Shown: piece by piece, positions 1,401 through 56,535 of the stretch
Position numbering within the stretch: position 1 is the first letter of the stretch
Layout: every line of letters starts with the position of its first letter
Source: Haliclystus octoradiatus
Taxonomy: Eukaryota; Cnidaria; Staurozoa; Stauromedusae; Haliclystidae
Direction of reading: 5' to 3'
DNA length: 64,000 nucleotides
Assembly (NCBI GenBank): GCA_916610825.1
Contig: OU744453.1
Location: 1,618,724 to 1,682,723 of the forward strand
Notes under the pieces: generated by a model
Told to the model about the DNA's origin: nothing
Seen by the model: only the letters and a program-made list of their open reading frames with translations
Databases searched by the model: none
Translations under genes and position numbers: made by a program

Positions 1401-12218
<10,818 letters not shown>

Positions 12219-15280: not shown

Positions 15281-15450
15281 TCATTTGTCCAGTATTCCAA
15301 GTTTTATAATTTGTCTTACGTGGTTTTTTTCCATTGTCTTCAGCCGTTTCTCTAACCTCTGATGTAGATCTTTGATAGATTCACTCAAATCTTTCGCAAT
15401 TTCAATAGGTTCTCTCGCAATCTCATGATTGATATCTTTATCTTCGGAAT
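15281..15450 (-). CDS. Gene A exon 24: cytoplasmic coiled-coil tail and stop
   Basis: Phase 1 exon encoding 55 further residues then TGA. It is highly charged with heptad-like hydrophobics (IEIAKDLSESIKDLHQRLEK), predicting a short coiled coil that could help tetramer assembly. The acceptor (cgtacatgcag) is good and the carried phase matches only the spliced form of exon 23. Confidence 0.75.
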
Positions 15451-18400
15451 CTGCATGTACGTAAATGATAGACTACAAAATTATACAAGAATCGAAATAT
15501 TAATTTTATTTAACATGTTCCATGGGGTATACTTCCAAGCGAAGATGTTAAAACGGAGATGCGTCATTTCTATGGGTACCATTTTGGCTTAACGATTGTG
15601 AATTTACGGTATCAAGGTTCAAAATTTTACTATTGGCTACCTGCTGAGAAAATTCTGGTTTCTAGTGGTAAATACGGTGTATATTTCATACCACTGAGGT
15701 CTCCAGAACGCTGCTGCAAGGTGAAGAATTGCAATTTAAATTATTCTGCAATTCTGTTTATGGAAAGTTTTGAGTATCACTCCAAGCAAAATCTGCTATT
15801 TTGGATGCTAGTATGGTTCTCAAAATAGAACACCCCCGTGCAAATCATGTTATTCTGATCTAAATCATGGTTTGAGTTTGAATAGCCTATTTTAAATAGG
15901 CTAGCAAGTGTGAATGTTTCAAATGAAAACCATATGTTTCGATGATATAATTTCATAATGCTGCAACTTCTGATAATACGAACACTAAACAGTATAGATT
16001 TACGATTATCTGGGGGATATTAAAGGTAGGAAGAACTGGTGATGCAAAATAAAGCGAGCTCGGAGTTGATGTGCCTAAATTGATGCCAAAAAATGTTAAT
16101 TCATCTAGGCAATATCAGTACGAATGTTAGGAATTCCTTAACAATTCACTCTACACATGTATCTTGTCTAAATTCTGCATTTTCGGAAACTGACAATCTA
16201 CAGTGAGTTGGATGACGCAGTGATCAATCATTAGTCTATGTCTTGGGCCTAGATGAAACAGTCTCCGGTAGAGACCTTGGTTGCTGTAGCAAATATTCAA
16301 ACAAGAAAGTGGAAGACTGAATCGCAGAATTGTTTCATGTGAACAGAAGTGAGTATTACTGGAAGGTAGATTTTCTCCGAAGCTTTCATTTCAGCTAATA
16401 TTCGTGTCAGATTTTCATCAATATATAGCTGATTAGTACGTCTTTAATTAATTTGACTCTGAATAGACAAGCAACATGATAAATTCTTCCTCCGAGTAAT
16501 AGATATAATTCAACATTTGAATGGTTCTAATTGAGATTTCCATACCGAGTTTGTACCAATCCAAAGATGTTAACTTAACTTAAATTAAGATGAAACACTG
16601 CTTTGTGTATCATCCATCAAAACTTTAGCATTCGATGCACCATGCTTACCTTTCTTAATTAGTCTGTATACAGCCTTGATGAGCTTAAACATTAGTGCTA
16701 GAAGCCATAAGCAAGCAACAAGAGAGATACCACCAATTATCACCAGTTTTGCAAATTCAGAATCTTCATCAAATAATGTCACCATTGGGGGAACTTTGCC
16801 AGTACCCTGTAAGAAAAACAACAGGAAATTATAAATATGATAAAAAGCGTTTGTGGGTCATTGCGTCCAGTTTTTTTTTACTGTTTTTCAAGCCATTTAT
16901 ATAAGTTTGTGGAGGATTAGCTCAGATAGCAGTGCAACCGAAATTCAGATCGGATCATATCTGATCGACTGTGCTTCAAATCCTCTTGAGGTCTACTCCA
17001 CCTTGACTTTATCTGAAACATCAAATGAGTACAATCTAAGGATATCTTATGCACTCTGAGTAGCTGCGGCGCATCGTTGCGCATTGACAATCGAAACCTA
17101 TCTACCATGAAATCTGTTGAAATTGATCTGCAGTGTCGCGGCTGAGATCAACAAAGAGCGTCTAAAATCATTGCTCTCAGCGGATTTAGAAATATAGGAG
17201 TAGAACGGGGGCCTTCGGTAGGATGACACCGTCTACATTACTACCTTAATTTATATAGGGCTCAAGCATTAGAATCCTCATTCTCCAGTTGTTACTCAAA
17301 ATGGTTTGATTTTTAATGCGCATTCTATTATGCATAACAAACAGAAATTATACTGTAAAATGATGTTTTAGCTGTATCATTTGTCTGACTTTCGCTTTAG
17401 ATTTTAAAGTTTCACCAGATTTCTTTCATCAATCTGGTTAAAGCATTTAATGTTGATTTACATGTTTGATGTAATTTAACCAAGCAACAGAGATGACTCA
17501 TTGCGCTTGTATATAGATCTGTTCGTATTGGATATCGCCTTATAGTACATGTATATGAAATACATATAACATAGAAACACAGTCATGGACATCAAAGCCT
17601 CTTGATGGAAATCTCCCTTGCTTGTTCATTCAATTCATTTTCGTATAATGGTCTACGTTTGATGTTCATAAAGTGCTAGCTATTATAGCACTGCAATTAA
17701 TCTGTATCGTATAATACTCGCCTCCAGCTCTATAGTGTGATTCTTTATTTCACTTGCAATTTCAGATGATAAATCATTGATAGTTTGTTGAAAGTATTCT
17801 TGTGCATATTCTAAACTACCCGATATCACAATCCCATAAGAAGCAGGATATCGGATTATGGAATCAATCCTAATGTCTGGATCTTCAAATAATGACCATC
17901 GCGCTGCTGTTGCATCCACATCTAAAATGACACCATCAACTTCTCTTGCCTTCAATGCCAATGCTAATTCTTCTATGGTAGTGTAATTAGCATCTGTAAT
18001 GAAAACAAATCACCTATAATATGCCGTCAAATAATGATATCTAACAGTAACATTGGCGTAGTAGTTAGGACATTTGAACATGACCTGCAAGGTCTTCGAT
18101 TCAGTCCTTGCTGCATCATTCATTCATAAATCCTTCAATTTTTGCTATGTTATTGTACCTAGTCAGATCAAAGTGTTCTGCATTAACTTCAGGATGCAAA
18201 CAAAAATCCATGTGTACATATTTTTGTACTTCGCTCTTTCTATTCAATAAAAGGAAATATTTTCAACATATGATTGTATTTGCTATGTTTTCAGTCTCTC
18301 AGATATATTCGTTTACCAATGCTTTCATTTTCCTTCATGAGAAAGACAATTAATAATTTATCCATACCTTGATTAACTTTTCCATTTCTAAGGACACCAA

Positions 18401-21400
18401 CAGAATATGCTTTAGAATGCATTAAGGCTCCAATCTTTTAAAAATACAAATGAAACTGAGCTTTAACGTTATTTTTAATTAAGCCTCAAATCCCGGGGGG
18501 TAACTCCAGCTTTTTAGGGAAGGAGAGGTTCCACTTTGGAAAGAGGTAAAGTACCCAAACAGTTCCAAAAATTCTGTTTATGCTACCCTAAAAGCTCTAG
18601 CAGATTGATTGACTTTAGATAAAGACACAAAAATGATGCAAATGTTTTCAAAAAGTCTTGAAAAAGTCAAAAATAGGACACCCAAAAGCTCCAAAATTAG
18701 AAATCTCATACCCAAAAAGGTTTTCTCAGCTGGAATATGGATCCAAAAAATGTGGCACGTCCCCGTATAGCCGTCCGAGTGGATTACCCCCCCCGGATTC
18801 AAATATAGATCAGACTCAATATTACTGGACACGCTTCTGTTCAAATGTTCAAGAAAACTGAGCAACATATAAGCATCTATTGTATGACTTATTGTTAAGA
18901 CAAAACTAGTCTATACGTAAATAATCTGAACCAGGCTTGATGATTATTAAATACCAGTAATAAATTGAGATAAACCAAATCATGATAGCAATTGTATAAT
19001 AAAAAGTAATAATGTATCGTAATAATGAAGTATAGGAAGCGAGATCAACTCCCTTGAACATATAATTTAGATCTCATTGTTATTTTCAATTTACATTCTC
19101 CGTATCAAATCATAGAGGATCAGGTACTAAAAATATTGTAAATCAATCAATGCTAGATAGCTAATATTATCATAACATTATTACACGGTCTACCCTGGTA
19201 CTGCATGCATTGTATTTACTGTATTTTTAAATGTATCTCTATCGTATGCACGTTATATATAACTATAAGTCATTCCAATCAATGTACTGATTTGAGCATC
19301 AACGAAGTATATTTTAGTTTCAACAACGATCAGTCAATACAGTCCTTTTTGTGACATTTATTTATACCATGTACTTTGTTGAGCCTTTTGGTGTTTATTT
19401 AAATTTATAAAGCATGTCCAGTTTATGGCCTTGTTAATTTATTCCATTTGCTGAATTTCTTCCTGTTATTGTTTTTGATTATTGTTTTATTAGTTGGTAT
19501 TCTTTTTTGTTAAAAAAATCACTTGTTGAGAAGTGTAAGATGGAGAAGATTGAGGAGAAGTTTTATACTGTTAATTAAGACCATTCGAGTTTTTATTATT
19601 TAATACTCTTGTTCTTAAATAAAACCTGTAAAGAATCCGGAATCATAAAATTCTTGGTGACACTCGATTATCGTATAAAGAGGAGCAGAAAATTTGAATA
19701 TTTTTCTGCAATCAATAAAATATATGCTAACCTTTGAACCGTAAATTTTGAAGTCATCATTCTGGTAACCAGCATTTAATGACGATGTCAATGCTCCCAT
19801 TAAAACTGACATACATATCAAGCTAATTAGAATCCAAACAATGGCAAAGCATCGACCAATGCTTGTCCTGGGTGTTATATCACCATATCTATGGAATAGA
19901 TAAATGAATTAACGAGTAATTTAGTGAGTACATAGATGATGAATACAAGATTTCCATACACACTCATAAGAACAACAGCAAAATAACGAAATATCTGTTA
20001 GCTAAAGTATAAAGTAAAAACGTAGATTCATACTTGTATTAAGTTGTTTAAAGGAATTAAAATACACTATTCTATATTCTATTCTATTCTATTCTATTCT
20101 ATTCTCTTCTCTTCTCTTCTATTCTATTCTATTCTATTCTATTCTATTCTATTCTATTCTATTCTATTCTATTCTATTCTATTCTATTCTATTCTATTCT
20201 ATTCTATTCTATTCTATTCTATTCTATTCTATTCTATTCTATTCTATTCTATTCTATTCTATTCTATTCTATTCTATTCTATTCTATTCTATTCTATTCT
20301 ATTCTATTCTATTCTATTCTATTCTATTCTATTCTATTCTATTCTATTCTATTCTATTCTATTCTATTCTATTCTATTCTATTCTATTCTATTCTATTCT
20401 ATTCTATTCTATTCTATTCTATTCTATTCTATTCTATTCTATTCTATTCTATTCTATTCTATTCTATTCTATTCTATTCTATTCTATTCTATTCTATTCT
20501 ATTCTATTCTATTCTATTCTATTCTATATTCTATTCTATTCTATTCTATTCTATTCTATTCTATTCTATTCTATTCTATTCTATTCTATTCTATTCTATT
20601 CTAAGAAAATAATTTAAAAAATATATTCTTTATGAAATATTCAAACCACTTAAATTCTTGTTTTAAGAAAATGTGTTGCTTAAAACAAGAATAAAAGCCC
20701 ACCCAAGCAAATGGATTTTCCTGTGTATAAGGATTCACTTTCATTATTGGTTCTCACTGGTCTAACTTTTTCAAAATTATCCAAATAAGTCCTGTGAAAC
20801 ATCATTTTATACTATACTCACAGGCGTCAAGCAAGAATTAGATCAAGCGGATGTCACATCTGGTCAACTTTGCTTCAAAGTCCGAAGTTCTGCTATGTAA
20901 AGATTAAATGCGTACCATCTTTTGATGTTCGATGGAATTGTCGCAAAACAATACTCTTAATTCTTATCAGTTTAGAAGTTTCATATTGGGACATATCAAG
21001 CAAATTCAATAAAATTATCCCGCGTTTTCCCCTATGGGACTGGTGTTAACAAGGAGAAATATGGAGTAGGCAAGCAGCTTCAAAGAGATGCATAACGAAT
21101 AGATGCGGTGTACCTCTGTGAAAGTGAATTTCTATCTGTCACAGCTTCTGTTGCAATTGATATAAGATGCGGCTACTGAGATCAGTAGCAATGAGTATTT
21201 ACAACCATTGTTCTTGTTGAAAAGCCTCGTGAAATAGAAATGTGCAACGTGAAGTGCATTACTACACCTTGTATTAAACTTTTCAGACAGAAGACATCTT
21301 TGAATTCGATACTCCTCGATTGTAGTTTGCATGAAAGCTTGCTTTGATTGTTTATTACGGTACCTCACCAATCAGAACTATTCTAAAGACCCCCTCCTGC

Positions 21401-27400: not shown

Positions 27401-27469
27401 TTTGACTCCTTTTATTATATTTAGCTCTGTCAAATGATATCGAGCACTATTTTTTGTTATTAGATAATA

Positions 27470-27500
<31 letters not shown>

Positions 27501-39500: not shown

Positions 39501-40646
39501 GCATTTACCTGTTAATAACACTGTAGCTAATATATTTGCAAACCGCGTAATACCAATATGGAACTCATTACCAGAATCATTAGTTACTGCCCCTTTTGTT
39601 ACGTTTAAAAAAACTTTAGACCGAATAAATTTTTCAAATTTTTGTAGAGTTAGCTTTTAATTATTATCATGTTGTATTTCAAATTTAGGCTCCAATGTAA
39701 GTGTAAGCTATATGTAACTTACCAGTGTTTGCCAGTCAAACTTTTATTTCATTTGACAAATAAAAATCAATCAATCAATCAATATCATGAGGGGTAATTT
39801 AGGTGTTTTTCTTAATGCTGGTTTTCTCACTTTCTCCAACTTGTAGGTCTCTCAAATCAGAACGAGGCGTGCGGATGACTCCATACTACTATATATGCTC
39901 TTAGTATAGATGTTCATCGTATTTAGAAAGCTTTCATGAAAATATATTATGCTTCTATTCAGATACAGTCATTTAAAGTCCATATGGGGGTATATCTTAT
40001 TTTAGTGTAATGCTGGTTTTTCATTTTTTTCTTTTCATTGGGTATTAGATCTTTTATATCAGAACGAGGCATGCATATCATTAAATAACAATTGACAACG
40101 TCTAGTTTTTTGCATTTCTTTCTATAATGCTCTGCATATCCGCATCTAGCACTCTATTGATGTTTTGCCACCAATAAAGTTACCAATTGTTGGTTCGTTT
40201 GTGTCCTTCAAAAAAGAATCTGCCTTTGGCAAAAATGTGCCTTACATATGAAATTATATAAGATTAACAATATTTTTTTCAGATATAGATGAAGGTGCAT
40301 ATTGGTTAATATGCAAGAAGATTTTAATTCGCGATAGTTCCATACGTCACAAAACTAGGTTAAAAATTATTCAAAAAAATGTTCACATACTTGTAGTTCT
40401 CTCAAATGACAACGAGAAATGCAGGTGACTTGATAAAGCTATTATGTGTAGTTCTTAGATGTGTATCAAGACAAGTTAAAAATTTCATGAAAATATATCT
40501 TGCTTTTATATAGATACTTCCATTCAAGCTGTAGGTAGCATTTTAGGGTTCCTCACATTGCAGGTTGTCCCTTTCTCCAACTTGTAGTAGGTCTATCCAA
40601 TCAGTCTTGTGAAAAAAAGCTTTTAGCTTATTCAAGTTCTGAATAA

Positions 40647-40689
<43 letters not shown>

Positions 40690-49600: not shown

Positions 49601-52600
49601 TTTAGCAAATAGACCAATCACAACCTATAAGGTCAAAGGTCATACATGCTATAACTGTGATTGGTCATTCTAACTTTTTGTAATGAGCACATCACTATTT
49701 ACGTTTCCCTTGTAAAGAGCTGTTTGTAAAGGGAGATACATGAGAGGTATGTAAAACAGGGCTATCGAAATATCCCTTACCATCTTTCAGGCATGCTGTC
49801 GTGCAATCTTCTCCTTGATCTGCCAGTCGCAAGCCGGAAGAGAGCGCTGGATCACATGCTCTTTTGTCTAATTCCGTCTCGCATTCAGCATACATACTAT
49901 GTGATATACTAACATTGCAGAATCTTCTACGTACACTGGTAGGGTCAAAAATCAAAAACTTGTAACATAATGTCCAGGTGCTCCACTCAGTATATCTCAT
50001 CTCTTCGGCTATTGGCTCTAAAAGATAATGAAAATACTATAAAATAGTTTCTCGCGGCACATTCATCCAATACGCATCCATCTAATATAAACTGAATATT
50101 ACACCAAGAAATAGGTTTCACAGTTTTTAACTTAGTTGGCTTACTCTGAGATTAATCTATTGGCATAATATTAAACTCATGATTTACATGTTCTTTCTAT
50201 ACGGTACTTTATAGCCTGCGTGCAGACAGACTTTTCCTTCGTATAGTCCGTCTACGTATTGGCACCGAGTATCGTGGACTAAGTGTTTGTACTGAATTCA
50301 TATTAAATCAAATTACCTATAGTGTGATTTCCGGTTATTACTCAATTTCTTTTATTTTAATATACTGGCCAATTATTCATATATTTTATTATCCAATCAG
50401 AATTTACTACCAAAAAAGTGGCAGTAAAAAGAACAATAAGAACGCTAAATTCGGTGCTGATGGGCAGATGGACTATACGAAGAAAAAGTATGTCTGCACG
50501 CAGGCTAGGTACTTTATTGCAAATTGAAAAACATATCATTACAGTAAAACCCGTATATAACAGCCAGCTACGGGAGTTAGATAATTGACCATTATATGCA
50601 GGGGGCTTTCTATACAGGGTTGATTAAATAGAAAATGGTATAACTTAGACATTGCAAGGATGATCCCTTATATAGACAGGTGGCCACTGAATAGAGATGA
50701 CTGCTGCAACCAGTTTAGCTGCACTACAAGATCAGCCAGAAGAGGTATAGGTGCCACAATTGTTTTCCTGATTGTTAGGAATTAGAAAGGTAACATTTAG
50801 TTTACCCGAACGGATACTTTGAAACAATGACATGTCGTCTCTAAGCTGTTAATTTAACCTACCCACGGGAATCAGTTCTAATCAAAATTTAAACAAATTT
50901 AAATATAGAATGAATGAAATAGAGGACACATCAAGATTTATTCTGTAGCCATTTAATTCCCATGTTGAATTTTAGTACATTCCATAGGAACGCACTCCTT
51001 AATTGTATTTCCAGGTTATATATATTATATATATATACTATACTTTAAGGAGGATTAGCTCAGATAGCAGAGCAACCGAACTTCAGATCGTATCATATCT
51101 GATTGACTGTGGTTCAAATCCCCCTAAGGTCAAATCAGCCTTGACCTTATCTAAAACATCACTAAATGAGAACCCTCTGAGGATGGCGAATGGAATGGTC
51201 CAGAGGGAATTGCATTGTGAGTAGCTGCAGCGCATCGTTGCTCATTGACAATCAAGACCTATCTGCCATGAAATCTGTTGAAATTGATCTGCAGTGTCGC
51301 GGCTGAGATCAACAAAGAGCTTTAAAATACATTGCTCTCATCGAAAAAAGCCACTCATCTAGAAATAGAGGAGTGGTACGGGTGCCTTCGGTAGGGCGAC
51401 ACCGTCTACATTACATTACGTACTATATCATTACATTACATTACATATCGTCTAAGTTTTAAAATAAAAAGGTATAGTAGTTATTGTTAATGTCCCTCAT
51501 AAATGTCATTCTCGTAACTATACCTGTTGGGGTAGTTGGGAGAATGCCAGTCGTTGTCGATGATAGATTAACACTCAGTGATTGAGATGAGTTGATAAGG
51601 CCTAATTAATGAAACGAAAACGTTCAAAGGCACTCAATATAACCATGACTAGCTATTTATGCAAAGGAAATTATGTAACGAAAGCAATAAATAAGATTAC
51701 TTCTCTGACAAAAGAAGCTTACCGATAGGCAATCTGATTGTTGAAATAGAGTTTAATTGTAAGTGTGATGATGAAAGGTTTGTCAATGTCATCTGGCCTA
51801 ACAAACAAAGAAATTTTTCCACAATAATCGTTTAAACATAATGTCACTATCCTCTGCTTAATTCTGCACGGTATATAGGACTTGGAAACGATCTTTCATA
51901 TGAATACTACGCGAAGATCAAGATAGTATAAAATAGAATATCTCTCAAGCTATTCTTCAAAATTTGATATTCAATAAAGTTTTTATTCATTAGTTATAAT
52001 GAAAATGAGCGACAAAAACAATTCAAATGGCATTTGAGCATGGAAATGGAGACATGTTTCATTTTCACGATCGCTAACATTGATCACTTTATGACGTTTC
52101 CAAATGTTTTGAAATTAACTAAATAATATGACATGACAAGTGCTTTCCATGTAAATAATCGCAATTGAAATTAGGGATAAATGAGACAACTCTCCAAAAT
52201 GAACAAAGATTCGATAAATTGAGAAATACTAAAACAGTTTAAATTCGAGAGCGGTCTTCGAAATTATTCGAAATTGATGTGTGCCGTATATTTGTACATC
52301 AAGCTGGACGAAAAATTTTACAATAGGTGAGAATTGAGAACAATTGATGGGAGTTGAGACCATAAATGAAAAATAAAAATTGAAAATGTTTTAAATCGAT
52401 AATGTAAAATTTCACAAAAATTTGTGTGCATTTTAAAATTGGAACGTCCCCATACAATGGATTACGTTTAGTCACTAGAGTATTTTTTGTTACTGAGATT
52501 ATCCAGATTTGAAATTGGACTAATGGAATTAAACTAGCTATATATTCCCCCTGTGATATAGAGTCTACATATAGAGTGACCTGAACAAAGGAAATGTTCA

Positions 52601-55600
52601 ATTTAAAAGCTGGCTATATGTATTATATTGCCCGGGGTGTAATTTTTACTGTGCTTCGAAGAAGTTACTCTAATGAAACTTTTGTAGGTTAACCATACCA
52701 AAATATTTCAGATCAAGAAAAAGATACTCCAAATATTGTTTTAAAAAGGAAATACGTGTCGCATTACCTTTAAATAAAACCACAAAAAATGAAATGAAAA
52801 ATGTACGCTATAGTTGAACTATGCACCTAAAAAAAAAAATTTCTTGTAAAAAGTACCCCAAATTTCTTTCTTCCAATTTTTAATAATGTACCCTTCTAAT
52901 ATTTGAAGGTCCCCGTAAGCGAAAAGTATGGACCTTACCCCACGGGATTATTGTATAGCAGACTATTTGGACTTACTTGATGGAGTTGACGGAGTTGGGT
53001 TTAATCTAGTTGATAGAGTAACATGTTGGTATGTTGTCCTTGTCACTCCAAAGTAGCTTGATATTACAACATGTGCAGTTTTTGTCAGGGATGTTGCTGA
53101 TACTGCAGTAGATATGTTTAGTGATGAAGAAGAGATAGTTCCGTTTGGAAGGCTGCATAAACCTAATATAAGCAACGGGAGAAAAATATGATACATATCA
53201 AGTATTTTAAATGGTGAAAAATGATGGCTAATGGAAAGAGTTTGGATTTTGCCTGCAAAAAGCTGAATAAAAAAATCTAGAAACGAGTACAGGAATGCGT
53301 CATTAAAAGAAGATGAAAAGAAAAATTGTTTTTTTTTTGGTTTTGTTTTTTTTGCTCCCTTGGAAGATGAGTTGAACTTCGTTTGGACCAAAGTAATTGG
53401 CCAATAGCTGCACTTGAGTCGTGAAAAATATACTGATAGAAATTTCCTTCTCATAAGCGAAGTCTATCGCAGCATTTGAACATGTGTGTGCACCGAAGAG
53501 GAATCGAACCCCGGTCTCCCTCCCGCACATAGTGCGGACACTCTGCCACTGAGCTACCACTGCTCAAGAAAAAAAAAGATGTTGTTCGTCGTCAATTGTG
53601 TTGTTACTGCAAAATATTTTCATTCGGTACAAATCATATTAAATTATTCTGTGGCACACATAAGTGGATGTACATCCCTGTGTTCTCGAATCATATTTGA
53701 AAAAAATACATACATACATACATTTACATGTAATATCATGTCATATCAAGAGTTAAATGCTAGTCGATCAACTCACTTTCATTGACAATTTGAATTGTTT
53801 GAGTTGGTGTACACGGAATAAATATTAGTTTTCCATCATTGTAACCAGCACATTTCCCATCCAAGACATTAACAATATGATCGTTGTTGAACAAGTAAAT
53901 ATGATTGAAGGAGCAATCTAAAATAAAAATATGTAAAGAGTTAGGAGATGATATACCTACTAAATATACGATGTCGGAAAATTACTTAGGAAAGACGTGT
54001 AATTGTGTATTCAGCGGGTATGCAAAATGTTAATAGTGAAGTGAAAATTCATGCTGGACTTTAATTTACATAATTATGAGGGCTATCTGGGGGAATTTAT
54101 GTTTCGTGTATCATTCGTTGTTAGTGGAAACTGTCATTTCTAAATAATAAAGCTCGGGGGGTAACTTCCATTGCGCTTCGACAGAGTCGTTCAAATAGAA
54201 CTTTGGCAGAATGACCATCAAAAATTTCACATGATGAAAAAGATGCACCAAATGTAATTTTGTGAATGGCAGATTGAGCCAACACAAATGAAAAAAAAAT
54301 TTCATAGGCGAAATTTGTTTTGCACCATGAAAAACTTGTAAAGTCGTCAAGAGGATACCTCAAAAAAAATTATCGCTAAGCATACCCCAAAAACCTTTTT
54401 AGGGATTTTGAAAAAGTACCCTTTATACATCCCCGTATACCCAAAATATGGAAGTTACCCCAGCGGGTAATAAAGCGGCTCCACCATTTGAGGCTTTCAT
54501 TCACCAATTAGCAAACAAAATGCTGTTTAATGACATGGATAAACAAAATAAAATGTTTCTCCTGTCTTTTGCATATTCATTTGAGGAGGATTAGCTCAGA
54601 TGGCAGAGCAACCGAACTTCAGATCGTATCATATCTGATCGACTGTGGTTAAAACCCCCTAAGGTCAACTCAGCCTTGACATTATCTGAAACATCAAATG
54701 AGTACCATCTGAGGATGGCGGATGGAATGGTCCAGCGGAAATTGTATTGTGAGTAGCTGCGGCACAACGTTGCGCATTGACAATCAAGACCTATCTGCCA
54801 TGAAATCTGTTGAAATTGATCTGCAGTGTCGTGGCTGAGATCAACAAAGAGCGTTTAAAATCATTGCTCCCAGCGAAAAAAGCCACTCATCTAGAAATAG
54901 AGGAGTGGTACGGGTGCCTTTGGTAGGGCGACACCGTCTACATTACTTTTTTTACATATTCAATTGTTGGTTTGATAACAGCGTGGGGCTTAAATATTTC
55001 TCATCAAAGGCAATCATATTATGGAGATGAGTTACCCTTATGTTTTAAATATGCTGAGATGCCTCCAGCAGTGCTACATGCAGCAATCATGTGGTAGCCA
55101 TTAAGTATAACACTGATGATAGAAGACAGATATTATTCTCCTACCTTCACTCAATACCAAATGTCTGAGGTTAACCTTTAAACACCAGTATTTGTAACCA
55201 TCATAAACATTGATGACATTATTTTCTTTCACAATAAACGATGTATGGCAGGTTTGATTTTCAACCAGTTCCAACATTTTCCCTTCTTCAAAATGTCCTT
55301 GAACAGCAATTGAGAATTCTCTGCCATCATAAATTAATCGTAGTCCAATTTTATCTGTAGGAATAAGGTATAATACAAAGCAATTGGCGCACAGTTTCAT
55401 ATGAGCAATTGTTATTTGGTGCACTCGAGTCACTTCAGGATAAAAACTCGAAGGCGAAGAATGCTCGACGAGGTGGCTCGTAATGTTCTGCTACCTTCTC
55501 GTTTTCTCTTTACATGCCTCTCGTGCGCCAAATATTAATAGCTCATAGGAGAATGTGCACCAATTGCTTAGTATCATGTAAGTATACAATGAAAGATATT

Positions 55601-56535
55601 GGATCAATCTGATTGGTTTAAAGTTATGACGCCAAATCAACATAGAAAATCTTGGTTCGAAAACACAATCGATCTTACAATTCAAACTTGACATCACGAA
55701 TGAGGAGAATCACCAATCTGATTAAGAGTTTTCAAAACCTTTTTTGGGGCAAAGAGGTAATGTAGATATTTATGAATGTATGCTATAAATAAAAGCAATC
55801 TGCGCACAGTTTCCTATGAGCTATTGATATTTTGCGCACGAGAGGCACGTGAGGAGAAAACGAGAAAGCATCACAAAATTTCGAGTCGCCGCGGCGAGTG
55901 ATTTTTGCCTTCGAGTTTTCGCCAAGTTTGCTGTTATGGATTTTGTGTGTATTTTAGAAATGGTTACAAAGAGAAAACTATTGAAGATATGAATGGAAAC
56001 ATGAACTTATTTTATAACATTAGGTTTCATTTTACGATAAAATAACACTAACATAGAGCCTAGAAATATTTACAGAGTTAACTTGAATTCTGCTTGATGG
56101 AGATAAGGAATTCTATACCGGTCTAATTCAATTGAAATACTATTGAAGGCAAGGTACTGCTATATCGTGAAAATATCTTGATTTCAGTCGCAGACAGTGC
56201 CTCCTTGAAATTTTTGATCATAATAGTGAATAGTAGCGGTCACGTGGTAATTCAACTAAGCTGTTAAGAATCATTAAAAACCATCAAAATACCAAGTGAT
56301 ATTCAAGTGACATGTGTCTATGTAAATATAGAGATATCTTGTGTGCTTGATTGTAGCTTGCATAATCACCACATATTTCATCATATATAATTTCATATTT
56401 TTGACAACGTCATACAATTATAATTTATTTTTAACATCATAGAGACCGAATGAAAATTGTCAACTTACTTGGACTGCACAAGCCTTGGCATACCAGATAT
56501 GGTACAATAAGGAGGCAAAATGGCAAGAATGCCAT
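15281..56535 (-). CDS. Gene A: chimeric TSP1/SEA/FN3 ectodomain fused to a K+-filter iGluR-like channel (24 exons)
   Basis: Whole-gene entry; exons follow separately. Every junction has GT..AG borders and matching phase, and the exons sum to 4368 nt (1455 aa plus stop). Predicted order by residue: signal peptide 1-20; Cys-containing tandem module 23-139; Ser/Thr-rich spacer 140-252; divergent TSP1 plus Cys-rich module 253-410; TSP1 repeats 411-461, 462-518 and 519-575; SEA 576-682; FN3 domains 683-781, 782-885 and 886-985; iGluR-type S1 from about 986; M1 about 1120-1141; pore loop with TVGYGD about 1168-1174; M2 about 1184-1203; S2 about 1210-1345; M3 about 1368-1387; cytoplasmic coiled coil to 1455. 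This topology matches the prokaryotic GluR0 type and the rotifer AvGluR1 type of potassium-filter glutamate receptors. The ectodomain suggests anchoring to matrix or to another cell. Likely a plasma-membrane K+ channel gated by a small ligand; the ligand is unknown. The weakest junction is exon 22 to 23. Confidence 0.88.
16650..16806 (-). CDS. Gene A exon 23: last membrane helix M3
   Basis: 157 nt, phase 0 to 1, with acceptor tttttcttacag. It carries the helix LVIIGGISLVACLWLLALMF followed by basic KLIKAVYRLIKK, giving a cytoplasmic C-terminus. The strong donor AAAG|gtaagcat leads to exon 24. If this intron is retained, reading continues to a stop at 16585 and gives an alternative short tail ending DDTQSSVSS. 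Confidence 0.83.
16911..17241 (+). repeat. tRNA-derived SINE copy
   Basis: Starts GGAGGATTAGCTCAGATAGC, has a degenerate B box (GCTTCAAATCC), and shares the body of the other copies. It fills much of the gene A intron between exons 22 and 23. From 17242 to 17691 nothing is recognised. Confidence 0.8.
17692..17993 (-). CDS. Gene A exon 22: main part of S2 ligand-binding lobe
   Basis: 100 codons from acceptor tttcattacag. IEELALALKAREVDGVILD matches the iGluR S2 helix and the following (F/I)L(E/D) strand whose acidic residue binds the agonist amino group. PASYGIVISGS matches the GYGI...GS turn. The chosen donor is the weak gca|gtgcta at 17691, the only in-phase GT near the end that continues to exon 23; without splicing a stop follows two codons later. 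A stronger GT (gtattata) slightly upstream is out of phase, so a missed microexon is possible. Confidence 0.78.
18055..18118 (+). repeat. tRNA-like fragment (possible SINE head)
   Basis: GGCGTAGTAGTTAGGACATT followed by CTTCGATTCAGTCC resembles A and B boxes with tRNA spacing. The cloverleaf is imperfect, so it is not called as a functional tRNA. Confidence 0.35.
18368..18434 (-). CDS. Gene A exon 21: start of S2 ligand-binding lobe
   Basis: 67 nt, phase 0 to 1, reading IGALMHSKAYSVGVLRNGKV, which matches the early S2 segment of iGluRs where a strand (..GV..NG..) follows M2. Acceptor is tttttaaaag and donor is gtatggat. Confidence 0.75.
18494..18800. mobile_element. G-run MITE copy (CCCGGGGGGTAACT ends)
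   Basis: Left end CCCGGGGGGTAACTCCAG and right end GGATTACCCCCCCCGG flank about 300 bp with motifs such as CCCGTATA. Same family as 43808, 52628 and 54153. Flanking intron sequence to 19731 shows no gene. Confidence 0.65.
19732..19888 (-). CDS. Gene A exon 20: filter end (YGD) and inner helix M2
   Basis: 157 nt, phase 2 to 0. Joined to exon 19 it completes TVGYGDITP, the canonical K+ selectivity filter. It continues with the hydrophobic inner helix FAIVWILISLICMSVLMGAL and then the linker SSLNAGYQNDDFKIYGSK into S2. The small residues MGAL could serve as a gating hinge (inference). Confidence 0.88.
20069..20603. repeat. (ATTCT)n pentanucleotide tract
   Basis: About 535 bp, a little over 100 near-perfect ATTCT units, with an early CTTCT interruption block and one ATATTCT slip. 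It lies in the gene A intron between the two exons that encode the selectivity filter. Confidence 0.98.
20850..21240 (+). repeat. Old diverged SINE copy
   Basis: Weak but collinear similarity to the SINE body (TCTGGTCAACTTTGCTTCAA, ATGCGTACCATCT, CGGCTACTGAGATCAGTAG). It is too diverged for exact ends. Confidence 0.45.
21495..21586 (-). CDS. Gene A exon 19: pore helix and first half of the selectivity filter
   Basis: 92 nt, phase 0 to 2, ending MYWAFVTMGTVG. The pattern W.F.TM.TVG is that of potassium-channel pore loops, not of glutamate-receptor Q/R-site pores. The donor gtaagtgc cuts within the filter Gly codon. The acceptor is a tandem site (gaag|gag|), so one Glu codon may be included or skipped. 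Confidence 0.87.
21927..22393 (-). CDS. Gene A exon 18: iGluR-type S1 ligand-binding segment and first membrane helix
   Basis: 155 codons, phase 1 to 0. After a Cys pair (CKC) come EIKPYTY and GKLRGIFPQLLDSI, matching the S1 start of ionotropic glutamate receptors, then a CGVCG motif. The Arg in GIDRYQG lies where iGluRs carry the agonist alpha-carboxyl-binding Arg (inferred by motif order), and FVPMVEYPGMAVIII matches the segment before M1. The exon ends with helix TRLWTILVMNILLIGASGIM (M1). The full-length amino-terminal domain of animal iGluRs is absent; TSP1, SEA and FN3 domains replace it. Confidence 0.85.
22700..23022 (-). repeat. Left inverted arm of Penelope-like element
   Basis: Inverted copy of 23450..23698 plus 27364..27440. 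It includes the end of the GIY-YIG ORF in reverse (positions about 22970-23022) and the downstream noncoding tail. Such inverted partial copies are common in Penelope-like elements. Confidence 0.8.
23024..23503 (+). CDS. Penelope-like element GIY-YIG endonuclease domain
   Basis: 159 codons, open from 23024 to the stop at 23503. Motifs: CPFNNECLTESLVYKADV, YIGLTEGTFKLRYTQH (GIY-YIG core with catalytic Arg), TQLSKYIWGLK, CHLCLIEKY and LLNKKSELISKCRH. These are the C-terminal endonuclease domain of Penelope-like retroelements. No reverse transcriptase is found upstream, so this is a 5'-truncated copy. It lies on the plus strand in a gene A intron, and the ORF is intact, suggesting a fairly recent insertion. 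Confidence 0.85.
   Translation: MEMSSDFTKGCTKQCNCRVKRPCPFNNECLTESLVYKADVTTTEDQEGQNYIGLTEGTFKLRYTQHMMSFKHRKYINSTQLSKYIWGLKDRKENYKIEWTCLAKEKAYSNKSKKCHLCLIEKYHIICAEEDLLNKKSELISKCRHENTFYLTNYISVKT
23699..27363. mobile_element. hAT-like nonautonomous element, 3.7 kb
   Basis: Ends CAGGCGCGGATCCAGG and CTGGATCCGCGCCTG are inverted, flanked by the 8-bp duplication GCATGAAA (23691..23698 and 27364..27371). No transposase frame seen. The interior has several GTCAATTGTT motifs and a nested element at 23836..25414. The 8-bp duplication and CAG ends fit hAT. Confidence 0.85.
23836..25414. mobile_element. Nested hAT-like element, 1.6 kb
   Basis: Ends CAGGCCCGGATACAGG and TATCCGGGCCTG with 8-bp duplication CATACAAT (23828..23835 and 25415..25422), inside the 23699..27363 element. 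It has repeated GTCAATTG motifs near its right end (about 24950-25380), a likely set of subterminal transposase-binding sites. No coding capacity recognised. Confidence 0.85.
27420..27690. repeat. Nested hairpin repeats
   Basis: Outer arms GCTCTGTCAAATGA and TCATTTGACAGAGC (about 27424 and 27549). A second palindrome at 27579..27688 has arms of about 45 bp (ATGGCGAAAGACTC / GAGTCTTTCGCCAT). (AT)n tracts lie at the hairpin tips and edges. Confidence 0.75.
27779..28078 (-). CDS. Gene A exon 17: fibronectin type III domain 3
   Basis: Phase 1-1 exon of 100 residues: PSVAPSNLTV start, VIAEWVHIP with the core Trp, YYIIEYLRI, then LATGARYMFDIHGVNENGKG. It is the last ectodomain unit before the channel core; the following 5.4-kb intron is full of transposons. 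Confidence 0.9.
28530..28610 (+). repeat. tRNA-like fragment (possible SINE)
   Basis: GTAGTGGTTAGGGCATCGG is a good A-box-like segment and ATATCAAATTCACC a weak B box. Not a functional tRNA. The rest of introns 28079..28863 and 29176..30083 shows nothing recognised. Confidence 0.35.
28864..29175 (-). CDS. Gene A exon 16: fibronectin type III domain 2
   Basis: Phase 1-1 exon of 104 residues: PRTAPQRL start, RIYWNEI with the core Trp, GYMVTVET, then CKPNTEYVISVYAFNEAG and GPSTSKAV. The NTEY and NEAG.G.S motifs are typical FN3 F-G strands. Confidence 0.9.
30084..30380 (-). CDS. Gene A exon 15: fibronectin type III domain 1
   Basis: Phase 1-1 exon encoding one complete FN3 domain of 99 residues: start PNNPPTF, ILITWIHES around the B-strand Trp, YIIVYR on the C strand, and MSPNTKYSIRVIP in place of the L..NT.Y...V motif. 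One exon per FN3 domain with symmetric phase 1 is the classic exon-shuffling arrangement. Confidence 0.88.
31014..31159 (-). CDS. Gene A exon 14: SEA domain, last part with EGSV motif
   Basis: 146-nt exon, phase 2 to 1. It carries REGSVICDLEMSF, matching the strand around the G|SVVV autocleavage site of SEA domains, followed by a helical stretch (FQLLILQEAIERK) and the strand NATIEIES. The previous exon is almost 12 kb away. If cleaved as in mucin-type SEA domains, the ectodomain would be held non-covalently to the FN3-channel part. Confidence 0.82.
32990..35105. repeat. Satellite array, left arm (about 200-bp units)
   Basis: About eleven imperfect units spaced roughly 200 bp, each with CTTGCTATAGTGCACAAAAG, TTTTTCATCGACTTATTCAT and CCTCATTAAACTTATCGG. 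Two unit subtypes alternate in part (CTACTGAACACGTGTAA and GTACTAAACTCATGTAG). Confidence 0.93.
35160..36065. repeat. Second tandem repeat family inside the 11-kb element
   Basis: About three imperfect units with CACTTTCTCGACTTTAAATG, TAGTATGTCATACGCAGA and TATCGAAGTGATTTAAAAAA. It is interrupted by the MITE at 35629..35832 and contains a near-perfect hairpin at 35316..35362. Confidence 0.75.
35629..35832. mobile_element. MITE, TA-flanked (second copy of the 1605 family)
   Basis: Ends TACAGTGTAACCCGCTTATG and, inverted, TACAGCGTAACTCGCTTAAG; closely similar to 1605..1793. Inserted in the repeat units of the 11-kb element. Confidence 0.78.
36455..36506. repeat. (ATCAT)n pentanucleotide tract
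   Basis: About ten units of ATATC/ATCAT type. A similar tract is at 38240..38270, before the second LINE. Confidence 0.85.
36560..36985 (+). pseudogene. LINE ORF2 C-terminal fragment (CR1-like)
   Basis: Frames give NVQRSFTRYVCLKNN and LNLESLELHRLKFDLHMVF, then after a frameshift near 36715 ANRIIKPWNSLPEEVISSNS to a stop at 36980. These are the conserved C-terminal motifs of CR1/Jockey-type non-LTR ORF2. 5'-truncated and frameshifted. Confidence 0.82.
37060..37951 (+). pseudogene. 5'-truncated LINE of a different family, with poly(A)
   Basis: One long frame (to 37879) with RITLTKLRVSSHKLTVQTGR and LCPVCNKDDIDDEIHLLFFC, the Cys/His C-terminal motif of several non-LTR ORF2 proteins, followed by an A-run ending at 37951. 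The frame is open for over 250 codons, so this copy is younger than its neighbours. No RT domain is present. Confidence 0.82.
38275..39785 (+). pseudogene. LINE reverse transcriptase, broken (CR1-like)
   Basis: RT motifs in several frames: NYRPISLTCIACKVMEK, DAVYIDFKKAFDTV, then WLESYLNGRSQQVVIG, TSGVPQGSVLGPLLFLIYVN, and C-terminal ANRVIPIWNSLPESLVT to a stop at 39660. The catalytic YADD is replaced by FAADAK and there are stops and frameshifts, so it is inactive. The 3' end is a short (TCAA)n tail at 39762..39783. Same family as 36560..36985. Confidence 0.88.
39786..40935. repeat. Diverged tandem repeat region
   Basis: Several imperfect units with CTTTCTCCAACTTGTAGGTC, CAGAACGAGGC and ATGAAAATAT. 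A (GAT)n tract lies at 40648..40689 after GTTCTGAATAAATGATG, a tail also seen at 59168. Confidence 0.65.
40990..42240. repeat. Satellite array, right arm (inverted relative to 32990..35105)
   Basis: About six units with ACTTTTGTGCA, AGTTTAATGAGGAAAAT and AAGTCGATGATAAAAC, the reverse complement of the left-arm satellite. Together they give the 11-kb element long inverted arms. Confidence 0.9.
43018..43085 (-). CDS. Gene A exon 13: SEA domain, middle part
   Basis: 68-nt exon, phase 0 to 2, reading IFSLYNGSINIGSYSNVAVL, which leads directly into the REGSV strand of exon 14. Its donor (gtaaatat) lies 56 bp from the end of the 11-kb element that fills the next intron. Confidence 0.72.
43561..43667 (-). 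CDS. Gene A exon 12: SEA domain, first part
   Basis: Phase 1-0 exon of 36 residues beginning ATLTATILFDIPWNQDL, matching the first strand and helix of SEA domains. It joins exon 13 in frame. Recognition depends mainly on the exon 14 motif. Confidence 0.75.
43808..44152. mobile_element. G-run MITE copy (long CCC/GGG ends)
   Basis: Left end CCCGGGGGGGGGTAACTTCC and right end GGAAGTTACCCCCCCC... form inverted termini around about 300 bp with TGGTATACGGGGACG. Reading frames over it (poly-Pro or poly-Gly) are artefacts. Confidence 0.75.
44668..44838 (-). CDS. Gene A exon 11: thrombospondin type 1 repeat
   Basis: Phase 1-1 exon of 57 residues with TSP1 pattern FSHWTEWTECNKPCNNG, RRLRSCTNP, YGGIDCLG and ending CNMFGCP. 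It is the third and last TSP1 repeat of gene A before the SEA domain. Acceptor is tctttttcaag and donor is gtgagtac. Confidence 0.9.
44865..45345. repeat. Inverted repeat pair, about 65-bp arms
   Basis: GTGTTTCGTTCCTGCCAAGG (about 44898) is mirrored by CCTTGGCAGGAACGAAACAC (about 45283), with flanking TTGATGAGG/CCTCATCAA also mirrored. A hairpin-forming element of unknown class in the gene A intron before exon 11. Confidence 0.68.
45729..46003 (-). repeat. SINE fragment lacking its tRNA head
   Basis: Reverse complement matches the SINE body from GACC...CTGAG to GGGCGATACC. A small piece of the head (AATCCTCC) appears about 200 bp to the right, at about 46200, suggesting a later insertion split the copy. 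Confidence 0.7.
46278..46448 (-). CDS. Gene A exon 10: thrombospondin type 1 repeat
   Basis: Phase 1-1 exon of 57 residues with the complete TSP1 pattern: YTSWSRWNNCTVTCDGG, then RSRICSNP, GGNPCYG and ending CEVNPCP. NCT is a sequon. Acceptor is ctccaatag and donor is gtgagatt. Confidence 0.9.
47541..47634. repeat. Short hairpin MITE remnant
   Basis: Imperfect palindrome: CACTCTTGTTCGTGGGCC at left, CACTCACAAGAGTG at right, with AAATTTAGACTCAC / GTGGGTCTAAATT inner arms. The flanking parts of introns 46449..47709 and 47863..48771 show no gene. Confidence 0.6.
47710..47862 (-). CDS. Gene A exon 9: thrombospondin type 1 repeat
   Basis: Phase 1-1 exon of 51 residues. It shows the TSP1 core FTEWSSWSSCDVTCDGG, then basic residues QQRKRRC and the ending CNDFPCP. 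W..W..C and CD.TC..G are intact. Gene B exon 5 has the same length and is clearly paralogous. Confidence 0.9.
48772..49008 (-). CDS. Gene A exon 8: Cys-rich module (MGAT5 C-terminus-like)
   Basis: Phase 1-1 exon of about 79 residues with motifs CSSNIETGDTI, NLTWKDP, VPEYVNC and RLCNC. The Cys pattern with exon 7 resembles the Cys-rich C-terminal segment of MGAT5-type N-acetylglucosaminyltransferases (recalled, tentative); no catalytic domain is present. Compared with gene B exon 4 this copy has lost one Cys (DLYSGF against GLCSGF) and gained two (DPCHPYY, VNCSCKP), so its disulfides may be rearranged. Confidence 0.82.
49781..50017 (-). CDS. Gene A exon 7: divergent TSP1-like domain and start of the Cys-rich module
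   Basis: Phase 1-1 exon of about 79 residues. It opens with the TSP1 signature TEWSTWTLC and an RRRFC strand, but lacks the usual CS.TCG loop. It ends with GLRLADQGEDCTTACLKD, the start of a Cys-rich module completed by exon 8. It is paralogous to gene B exon 3 (5293..5517). Confidence 0.85.
50212..50507. mobile_element. Small TIR element related to the 11-kb element
   Basis: 296 bp. Ends TAGCCTGCGTGCAGACA and its inverted copy extend about 38 bp; flanked by the 9-bp duplication GGTACTTTA (50203..50211 and 50508..50516). Same terminal motif and same 9-bp rule as 31974..42961. Confidence 0.87.
51049..51414 (+). repeat. tRNA-derived SINE copy, full length
   Basis: Head GGAGGATTAGCTCAGATAGC, B box GTGGTTCAAATCC, then a body of about 290 bp ending GGTAGGGCGACACCGTCTAC and ATTAC repeats. 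With 54585..54946 this is the best-preserved copy. Confidence 0.88.
51524..51601 (-). CDS. Gene A exon 6: short Ser/Thr-rich spacer
   Basis: 78-nt phase 1-1 exon, Ser/Thr-rich, with NLS and NSS sequons and a Pro/Thr end. It continues the mucin-like spacer and could also be skipped in frame. Acceptor is cattaattag and donor is gtatagtt. Confidence 0.65.
51723..51797 (-). CDS. Gene A exon 5: short Ser/Thr-rich spacer
   Basis: 75-nt phase 1-1 exon encoding a Ser/Leu/Thr/Asn-rich stretch with NLS as a sequon. Acceptor tttgttag and donor gtaagctt are good. As a symmetric phase 1-1 exon it could be skipped without breaking frame. Confidence 0.65.
52628..52946. mobile_element. G-run MITE copy
   Basis: Ends GCCCGGGGTGTAATTTTTAC and TATGGACCTTACCCCACGGG, same family as 43808..44152 and diverged. 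It contains GGTCCCCGTAAGCG near the right end. Confidence 0.65.
52977..53162 (-). CDS. Gene A exon 4: Ser/Thr-rich (mucin-like) spacer
   Basis: Phase 1-1 exon of about 62 residues, mostly Ser, Thr, Asn and Pro, with N-glycosylation sequons such as NGT and NIS. It is probably an extended O-glycosylated spacer between the N-terminal module and the TSP1 region. Acceptor is cttatattag and donor is gtaagtcc. Confidence 0.78.
53495..53570 (-). repeat. tRNA-like sequence (pseudogene or SINE head)
   Basis: Reverse complement reads GCAGTGGTAGCTCAGTGGCA then GGGGTTCGATTCC, good A and B boxes, with D and T arms. The anticodon stem CCGCA/TGCGG encloses a 5-nt loop, so a functional tRNA is unlikely. Confidence 0.5.
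53777..53917 (-). CDS. Gene A exon 3: second half of the N-terminal Cys-containing module
   Basis: Phase 1-1 exon of 47 residues with motif NDHIVNVLDGKC, echoing exon 2, and three Cys in total. It ends at donor gtgagttg. Extracellular by position; specific function unknown. Confidence 0.78.
54153..54470. mobile_element. G-run MITE copy, inverted relative to 43808
   Basis: Left end GGGGGGTAACTTCCATTGCG and right end ATATGGAAGTTACCCC. The interior matches 43808..44152 in reverse (ATCCCCGTATACCC). Confidence 0.72.
54585..54946 (+). repeat. tRNA-derived SINE copy, full length
   Basis: Closely similar to 51049..51414 over its whole length; the B box is damaged (GTGGTTAAAACCC). Confidence 0.86.
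55145..55354 (-). CDS. Gene A exon 2: first half of an N-terminal Cys-containing module
   Basis: Phase 1-1 exon of about 70 residues. It contains the motif NNVINVYDG with flanking Cys, repeated as NDHIVNVLDG in the next exon. The two units look like tandem repeats of one small fold; a beta-trefoil (ricin-B-like) lectin module is possible but unproven. Acceptor is ttcctacag and donor is gtaggaga. Gene B has no equivalent in this window. Confidence 0.78.
55375..55935. repeat. Inverted related repeat pair upstream of gene A exon 2
   Basis: Segments with CTCGTTTTCTCTTTACATGC / TCTCGTGCGCC (about 55498-55535) are mirrored by GCGCACGAGAGGC and GAGAAAACGAGAAAGC (about 55835-55870). Unclassified element in the first intron. 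Confidence 0.55.
56469..56535 (-). CDS. Gene A exon 1: start codon and signal peptide
   Basis: The ATG at 56535 opens MAFLPFCLLIVPYLVCQG, a hydrophobic signal peptide with probable cleavage near the Cys/Gly residues. The donor gtaagttg follows at phase 1. A polypyrimidine acceptor (acccattgtag) ends only 3 nt before the ATG, so an upstream noncoding exon or a trans-spliced leader must supply the 5' end. No upstream exon was identified. Confidence 0.8.

Follow-up and report, generated by a model that had tools for sequence, protein, structure and literature searches.

In a stretch of 64,000 nucleotides from Haliclystus octoradiatus (C10:1618724-1682723 in a searched genome of 261,861,806 bases and 33 contigs; "the window" is this whole stretch), a first-pass annotation had seen a potassium-filter channel of glutamate-receptor topology fused to an ectodomain of TSP1, SEA and FN3 domains. 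A step between K+ channels and the ionotropic glutamate receptors (iGluRs) of animals has been postulated in the form of K+-filter glutamate-receptor-like channels, and to my knowledge one K+-filter case has been described in animals, a rotifer protein. The question that this locus raises is whether ectodomain and channel are parts of one gene and, if they are, what kind of channel this is, whether it stands alone, and how it might be opened.

Gene A and its tandem paralog

The gene in question, here called gene A, lies on the minus strand. I built its chain by hand from minus-strand open frames and splice sites, and, as the annotation had claimed, 24 phase-consistent exons between 56535 and 15281 give a single frame without internal stop, with a predicted protein of 1445 residues in the final model, in which exon 13 is corrected. 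This protein runs from a signal peptide through a Ser/Thr-rich stretch, TSP1 repeats, SEA and three FN3 domains to S1-M1-P-M2-S2-M3 and a tail. The acceptors of exons 2-24 are AG, and the donors of exons 1-23 are GT except for exon 22, where the intron is GC-AG (GC donor at 17721..17720); the neighbouring copy, gene B, has GT-AG at the same boundary. The exons of gene A, with the evidence for each, are:

56469..56535, minus strand: exon 1, start and signal peptide (MAFLPFCLLIVPYLVCQGLCSP); ATG to GTAAGT donor, phase 0>1; hydropathy 2.02, residues 2-20
55145..55354, minus strand: exon 2, Cys-containing region, tentative; splice sites and frame
53777..53917, minus strand: exon 3, Cys-containing region, tentative; splice sites and frame
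52977..53162, minus strand: exon 4, Ser/Thr-rich stretch; splice sites and frame
51723..51797, minus strand: exon 5, Ser/Thr-rich stretch, tentative; splice sites and frame
51524..51601, minus strand: exon 6, Ser/Thr-rich stretch, tentative; splice sites and frame
49781..50017, minus strand: exon 7, divergent TSP1-like, Cys-rich; homologous gene B exon 5293..5502
48772..49008, minus strand: exon 8, Cys-rich module, no clear Pfam family; gene B 62% identical
47710..47862, minus strand: exon 9, TSP1; one of three Pfam TSP_1 stretches; gene B 66% identical
46278..46448, minus strand: exon 10, TSP1; Pfam TSP_1 468-517; gene B 48% identical
44668..44838, minus strand: exon 11, TSP1; Pfam TSP1_spondin 524-574; gene B 59% identical
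43561..43667, minus strand: exon 12, SEA, first part, phase 1>0; Pfam SEA above cut-off on exons 12-14
43018..43085, minus strand: exon 13, SEA, middle, phase 0>2; gene B exon C10:1616479-1616415
31014..31159, minus strand: exon 14, SEA, last part, with GSVIC; Pfam SEA on exons 12-14
30084..30380, minus strand: exon 15, FN3; Pfam fn3 687-775; gene B 58% identical
28864..29175, minus strand: exon 16, FN3; Pfam fn3; gene B 33% identical
27779..28078, minus strand: exon 17, FN3 abutting the channel; Pfam fn3; gene B 49% identical; same junction in relatives
21927..22393, minus strand: exon 18, S1 (CxC...CxxC) and M1; gene B 57% identical; Cys invariant in aligned members
21495..21586, minus strand: exon 19, pore loop to TVG, filter Gly codon split by intron; Pfam Ion_trans_2 1138-1208
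19732..19888, minus strand: exon 20, filter YGD and M2; gene B 79% identical
18368..18434, minus strand: exon 21, start of S2; gene B 74% identical
17722..17993, minus strand: exon 22, S2 with conserved Asp, then GC donor; gene B 66% identical; S2 profile match to GluR0-like S2
16650..16806, minus strand: exon 23, M3; hydropathy 2.64; gene B 58% identical
15281..15450, minus strand: exon 24, putative cytoplasmic tail (coiled coil by eye) and stop; gene B 46% identical; tail alignable in relatives

Gene B consists of 18 exons that are equivalents of exons 7-24 of gene A in the same order and phases, bordered by 18 AG acceptors and 17 GT donors; the phase entering its exon-7 equivalent was set from its open frame. 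It begins in the window and continues to the left of it:

5293..5502, minus strand: equivalent of exon 7; homology to gene A
3520..3771, minus strand: equivalent of exon 8; homology to gene A
2581..2733, minus strand: equivalent of exon 9 (TSP1); homology to gene A
1401..1583, minus strand: equivalent of exon 10 (TSP1); homology to gene A
C10:1618261 down to about 1590820, left of the window, minus strand: equivalents of exons 11-24; search of the same genome

As gene B repeats exons 7-24, and as 11 further stop-free S1-M1 exons are found in the genome, chance is excluded as an explanation of gene A. I regard it as confirmed that the gene predicted from the genome sequence is real and that TSP1/SEA/FN3 and channel are one gene. 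The channel exons of A and B are 62% identical (dN 0.25, dS 1.29 over 456 codons) and the TSP-part exons 7-10 are 59% identical (dN 0.35, dS 1.23 over 243 codons), both dS values being close to saturation; with a dN/dS near 0.2, the channel evolves under purifying selection. In length the first six channel exons agree exactly between the two genes, and the last one is about 10 residues longer before the stop in gene B. Exons 1-6, with splice sites and frame as their basis, are the weaker part of the predicted gene A, and a tblastn search gave no match to them above chance in the region of gene B. Exon chaining gives a possible start of gene B near 12152..12218 and 7771..7941, with a signal-peptide-like MDYLSLNILTLITLLSKGCSSS and a Ser/Thr-rich exon. 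To the left of gene B lies an extra M3-like exon (C10:1587362-1587270), a remnant or an alternative last exon, with no other matching exons between it and C10:1498724. Upstream of its S1 exon, gene B has an intronic open frame that by eye resembles reverse transcriptase (about 600 bases into the reversed locus L028).

The ectodomain was claimed to carry TSP1, SEA and FN3, and all three were found above their Pfam cut-offs in the profile search of the final model: TSP_1 with 107.5 bits in three stretches, fn3 with 71.3 bits in three stretches, and SEA with 29.8 bits in the full protein against a cut-off of 26.4. A motif search located TSP1-type W..W..C motifs at 49965..49985, 47822..47842, 46408..46428 and 44798..44818 in gene A, and at 5453..5473, 2693..2713 and 1543..1563 in gene B. 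The SEA domain is encoded by exons 12-14 in phases 1-0-2-1 and, by spanning these exons, ties the TSP1 part to the part with FN3 and channel. It is above cut-off in both genes once exon 13 is corrected from gene B. An earlier candidate for this exon, at 39156..39110, was rejected when gene B pointed to 43085..43018, by which the score of the isolated SEA domain rose from 17.0 to 35.5 bits. The SEA domain of gene A contains GSVIC close to the usual place of self-cleavage, which I take to resemble the self-cleavage site of mucins and adhesion receptors; the corresponding site in gene B is without the Ser, so that cleavage cannot be essential to the family. Nearer the start, exons 2 and 3 (118 residues) match no Pfam family up to E 10, and residues 140-252 are rich in Ser and Thr (47 of 113). 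The earlier model of 1438 residues has 25 glycosylation sequons, of which two lie in S2 and none in the tail.

Repeat units close to 200 bp in length are arrayed in tandem at 32979..35086 and 41216..42234, and copies in the former carry splice-like open frames of 87 bp, possible false exons for gene finders; these pseudo-exons, at 33-35 kb, have phase 1-1 and are incompatible with the phase-2 intron that contains them. Chaining exons by codon and splice scores alone took satellite copies as exons and missed M2, and was dropped. A supposed decayed copy of M2 at 18584 turned out to be a gap artefact. Further arrays are ATT x359 at 3841..4921, TATTC x105 at 20075..20603, inside the intron that splits the filter of gene A, and one with a 142-bp unit at 61269..62197.

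Pore and putative ligand-binding lobes

The claimed K+ filter is present in gene A as TVGYGD, with the T-x-G-Y-G signature, and differs from the non-GYG cation pore of ordinary metazoan iGluRs (AKDF/NMDA/epsilon). A pore of the K+ type, with selectivity read from the filter, is well supported. When the predicted ligand-gated channel was checked against profiles, the pore families Ion_trans_2 (56.9 bits) and Ion_trans (41.2 bits) were above cut-off in gene A, whereas Lig_chan (PF00060) reached 20.8 bits in gene A and 20.5 bits in gene B, below its cut-off of 30.8. In the earlier model, whose channel part is identical, hydropathy peaks above 2 coincide with the signal peptide, M1, M2 and M3, and weaker ones with S1 (1.71) and an FN3 (1.34). 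If the hydrophobic stretch of S1 were a membrane helix, it would reverse the topology. The tail is charged and by eye coiled-coil-like.

Ordinary metazoan iGluRs have the order S1-M1-P-M2-S2-M3 with a last helix, and an inverted pore orientation is known for iGluRs. The iGluR-like order that was claimed for this locus is borne out by the sequence, with pore and S2 related to those of GluR0. Because the signal peptide would export the FN3 chain and a single helix (M1) precedes the pore loop, an inverted iGluR orientation is predicted for gene A as well; for GluR0 it has been shown, according to the available text (PMC13099474).

The claim that S1 and S2 form a clamshell is not supported as a whole: S2 agrees with it by profile, and S1 as a lobe is not detectable by sequence. 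A profile of the family, compared with a profile of 11 GluR0-like proteins, gives E 6e-36 and covers the last S1 strand, M1, pore, M2 and S2. With S2 alone, the GluR0-like S2 is matched at E 1.2e-6 and none of 60 column shuffles is equal (hhalign), a measure that relates S2 to the second lobe in GluR0-like channels. For S1, taken from the paralogs in the same genome and Nematostella, the comparison with GluR0-like S1 gives E 0.029 with 1 of 100 shuffles equal, in a plausible register, and that with ordinary iGluR S1 gives E 0.12 with 5 of 100 shuffles equal. Against GluR0-like S1, a coral-heavy alignment reaches E 0.64, and gene A plus Nematostella is equalled by 6 of 60 shuffles. As positive control, S1 of ordinary iGluRs from the same genome matches GluR0-like S1 at E 7e-13. 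The S1 of gene A is Cys-rich and, by these profiles, not demonstrably a clamshell lobe.

Neither S1 alone nor S2 alone of gene A matches a binding-protein family in Pfam. Against solved structures, the S2 profile finds none at E<=0.001 and 36 rows at E<=10 (best 0.011), a mixture of amino-acid-binding proteins, viral hemagglutinins and other proteins in which the best aligns an ambiguous lobe; I rejected them as proof of a lobe. The four rows found with S1 are not convincing. When relatives and GluR0-like proteins, without gene A, are combined in one profile, it strongly matches iGluR and binding-protein structures; this profile was left unused since the GluR0-like rows may carry the signal.

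An Arg in S1 and a Ser and an acidic residue in S2 are presumably the amino-acid pocket positions of iGluRs, and I take the position six residues before a conserved Phe in S1 to be that of the iGluR Arg which holds the ligand's carboxylate. Of ten aligned members, all have the S2 Asp and nine have the S2 Ser. At the carboxylate position, gene A has Arg, gene B and the unnamed P0022 have Lys, and 8 of 10 GluR0-like rows have Arg; all eight coral-type rows have neither Arg nor Lys there, and Nematostella P0019 has Tyr.

Relatives in the genome, in anthozoans and among GluR0-like proteins

Used as query against the genome, the gene A channel finds at least 66 exon-level matches at E<=0.001 (93 of 132 candidates scored); many are confined to the pore and probably belong to other channels. 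Thirteen stop-free matches start at channel residue 1 or 2 and reach residue 108 or further. They are A, B, a third close copy, C, at C10:3782471 (58% identical), and ten more distant ones on C10, C8, C2 and C1. I read nine of the 12 paralogs besides A, gene B among them. The upstream FN3 exons of these paralogs score 25.3 to 52.4 bits against a Pfam cut-off of 25. In each of the ten members whose filter was read (A, B, C and seven others), an intron splits the first Gly codon of the filter after GG. The loci L029, L036, L039-L042, L045 and L046 appear as FN3-linked K+-filter channel genes, many of them on C10. The same genome encodes ordinary iGluRs too (L003, L006-L008), and those that were read show a normal S1 and lack GYG; they share the topology of the family (compared from S1 to pore), but their S1 passes the test that the family fails.

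The first protein search and the search of solved structures used the older gene A model of 1438 residues or its identical channel part. Eleven proteins were found, the best being Montipora P0001 (E 1.8e-24, 28% identity over 77% of the channel), and the other ten are K+-channel-like over 8-23% of the query. Searching with P0001 gave nine rows including itself: seven named anthozoan proteins, from Montipora, Oculina, Acropora palmata, Nematostella and, as three isoforms, one Stylophora locus, and two without name. FN3 is present in all seven relatives scanned for it with Pfam (P0001, P0012-P0014, P0017-P0019), P0017 also having F5/8C and TSP1, and the last FN3 runs into [EVD]TCxC in the relatives read, as in gene A. 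Lig_chan exceeds its cut-off in two of nine relatives scanned, P0014 (42.4 bits) and P0017 (39.8 bits), and P0020 reaches 30.4 bits. The same join of FN3, [EVD]TCxC and K+ filter is seen in P0001, P0019, Stylophora LOC111323926 (P0017), Oculina P0014 and Acropora palmata P0018; with gene A these proteins share about 21-29% identity in the aligned part of the channel. Their ectodomains differ, with C-type lectin, F5/8C and up to nine FN3 domains and with no SEA in the Pfam scans, and the S1 of the corals is shorter than that of gene A. In the databases they are annotated as 'PTPRQ-like' (Montipora P0001), as 'sidekick-1' (Nematostella P0019) or as uncharacterized. A precomputed domain, PF28033, is given for P0001, P0012, P0013, P0018 and P0019; it is absent from my own Pfam scans and may be a newer family definition.

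Among shorter proteins, a profile search gave at least 84 matches, with the 7999 candidates that share most words being scored. Pocillopora P0020, Acropora millepora P0021 and the unnamed P0022 come first, followed by 12 GluR0-like proteins (P0023-P0034, E 1.2e-28 to 9.5e-17) and then mostly pore-only K+ channels. P0022 has 455 residues and no adhesion ectodomain, with a signal-peptide-like start and a last helix seen by eye. The GluR0-like proteins carry SBP_bac_3 and Lig_chan, most of them also Ion_trans_2 and Ion_trans, and from this domain make-up I infer them to be bacterial. With GluR0 of Synechocystis they have in common with gene A the T.GYGD filter, the order S1-M1-P-M2-S2 and a related pore and S2. 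In contrast to the gene A family, the aligned GluR0-like rows are without a third helix and without CxC...CxxC; they have a classical SBP_bac_3 lobe, and no adhesion ectodomain is among their listed domains.

In a tree of the pore (45 chosen rows, with 23 other K+-channel matches hand-picked, P0088 dropped as it has no filter pattern, and P0015, P0016 and P0026 left out), the family and gene A form one clade (97/96). This part of the phylogeny that had been proposed against GluR0-like proteins stands, but the outer grouping, in which the clade adjoins the GluR0-like rows, is weak (84/49). Gene A is here sister to all other family members (96/77). The tree of the whole channel (23 rows, without P0015, P0016 and P0024; profile A2 was without P0031) separates the family from the GluR0-like rows at 100/100, and places A and B near Nematostella and P0022 (81/76), the latter being inside the clade though without FN3. 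I am unsure of gene A's place within the family.

A recent review names GluR0 and AvGluR1 as K+-filter glutamate receptors (PMC12332018). AvGluR1 of Adineta vaga has a eukaryotic iGluR architecture and a K+-type filter (same source); it shares with gene A an animal iGluR architecture and the filter type, and is set apart here by its description, not by sequence. A synthetic fusion of Kcv with a glutamate-binding domain also combines a K+ pore with the binding domain of a glutamate receptor, but is engineered and not natural, as described in the available text (PMC6385376). The available sections of animal iGluR surveys (PMC6307864, PMC12226733) and of a coral receptor survey (PMC9897584) mention no such proteins, and the word 'glutamate' is absent from a survey of cnidarian voltage-gated K+ channels (PMC9989356). 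I found no description of this channel family in the open-access literature, a scope that leaves most subscription journals and bioRxiv outside. The annotation had called the locus a candidate for an undescribed system, which agrees with this search result; however, gene A is not alone, as its design is common to anthozoan proteins and to a family in its own genome. I know of no TSP1/SEA/FN3 ectodomain in GluR0 or AvGluR1, and the claim that known K+-filter iGluRs are without one is supported to this extent. Judged by their sequences, the proteins described here would belong to a new family, for which I propose the name FN3-linked K+-filter channels of cnidarians, having in common FN3, an S1 of the TCxC type, a K+ filter, the S2 Asp and a last helix.

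Gating and alternative readings

I consider it likely that gene A encodes a large single-chain cell-surface receptor-channel, in which a K+ pore that senses through S1/S2 is anchored by the ectodomain. Four subunits would form the pore in the inverted iGluR orientation, the membrane-adjacent S1/S2 pair would sense an extracellular signal and pull M2 open, and the exit of K+ would hyperpolarise the cell, or damp its volume or excitability. The TSP1/SEA/FN3 arm would be an anchor at matrix or cell contacts, and could decide where, and perhaps when, the channel opens. As S1 has diverged beyond recognition around its conserved Cys, it is unlikely that a ligand is bound in the way in which ordinary iGluRs bind glutamate. 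A bolder version, tentative and on the whole doubtful, would see an undescribed class of cnidarian receptors that combines a bacterial-type K+-filter pore with adhesion ectodomains, in which S1 was rebuilt as a cysteine-clamped coupling module, and an inhibitory K+ conductance is opened directly by matrix or cell contact, or by tension on the SEA joint, which would cleave itself in gene A.

It is rather unlikely that the ectodomain itself opens the channel, by binding or pull on TSP1/FN3, with SEA as a breakable joint, S1 as a Cys-rich linker and no small ligand. This would agree with the unrecognisable S1, in which four Cys are invariant in nine aligned rows and which measures only 90-98 residues in seven coral-type members, with the missing Arg/Lys in 8 of 8 coral-type rows, and with an FN3-type exon that adjoins S1, within 1.5 kb upstream, in 9 of 9 paralogs checked, as well as with GSVIC in the SEA of gene A. 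However, S2 retains its lobe signature, gene A and gene B have Arg and Lys at the carboxylate position, gene B is without the Ser of the SEA site, and the second Cys pair of S1 is missing in three of nine paralogs (L036, L040, L041). Sensing by S1/S2, with the ectodomain as anchor and modulator, is favoured over gating by the ectodomain.

An ordinary amino-acid-gated K+ channel of the GluR0 type, with the ectodomain as a mere localisation tag, is equally a minority reading. Once members of the family are set aside, the channel profile matches GluR0-like proteins best, and at the carboxylate position ahead of the conserved Phe gene A has Arg and gene B Lys, with Ser and Asp in S2; yet S1 has diverged while the positive control passes, and the Arg position is lost in 8 of 8 coral-type rows and in Nematostella.

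That gene A is a common K+ channel in the usual orientation with unrelated flanking domains, its iGluR likeness being convergence, is improbable. The best 60 of 291 solved-structure matches of gene A, and the best 60 of 456 of the family profile, are voltage-gated and other K+ channels, aligned over the pore region, and Lig_chan is sub-threshold in gene A. Against this stand the homology of S2 by itself, the Lig_chan scores above cut-off in P0014 and P0017, and the fact that just one helix separates the exported FN3 from the pore loop. Slightly less probable still is a purely adhesive protein that has lost conduction, for which the iGluR-like delta receptors, mostly non-conducting, are a precedent; the filter is kept as T[VL]GYG[DE] in all ten members read, and the channel of A and B has the low dN/dS given above. 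Two neighbouring genes, or an artefact of the gene model, are practically excluded, for although introns of gene A reach about 12 kb and symmetrical 1-1 phases are common, SEA bridges TSP1 and FN3 across exons 12-14, the unit recurs in gene B from the exon-7 equivalent onwards, and in the relatives FN3 runs into the channel at the same place.

With S1/S2 sensing and an anchoring ectodomain as the preferred reading, the family would be of interest in several respects. As a multi-gene cnidarian family with a K+-filter pore, it makes the postulated step from K+ channel to iGluR accessible in living animals, and it is a natural fusion of adhesion domains with a K+-filter glutamate-receptor-like pore. 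Annotation has hidden it under names such as sidekick-1 and PTPRQ-like. It may also provide a route, open to experiment, by which contact with the matrix leads to electrical inhibition without G proteins.
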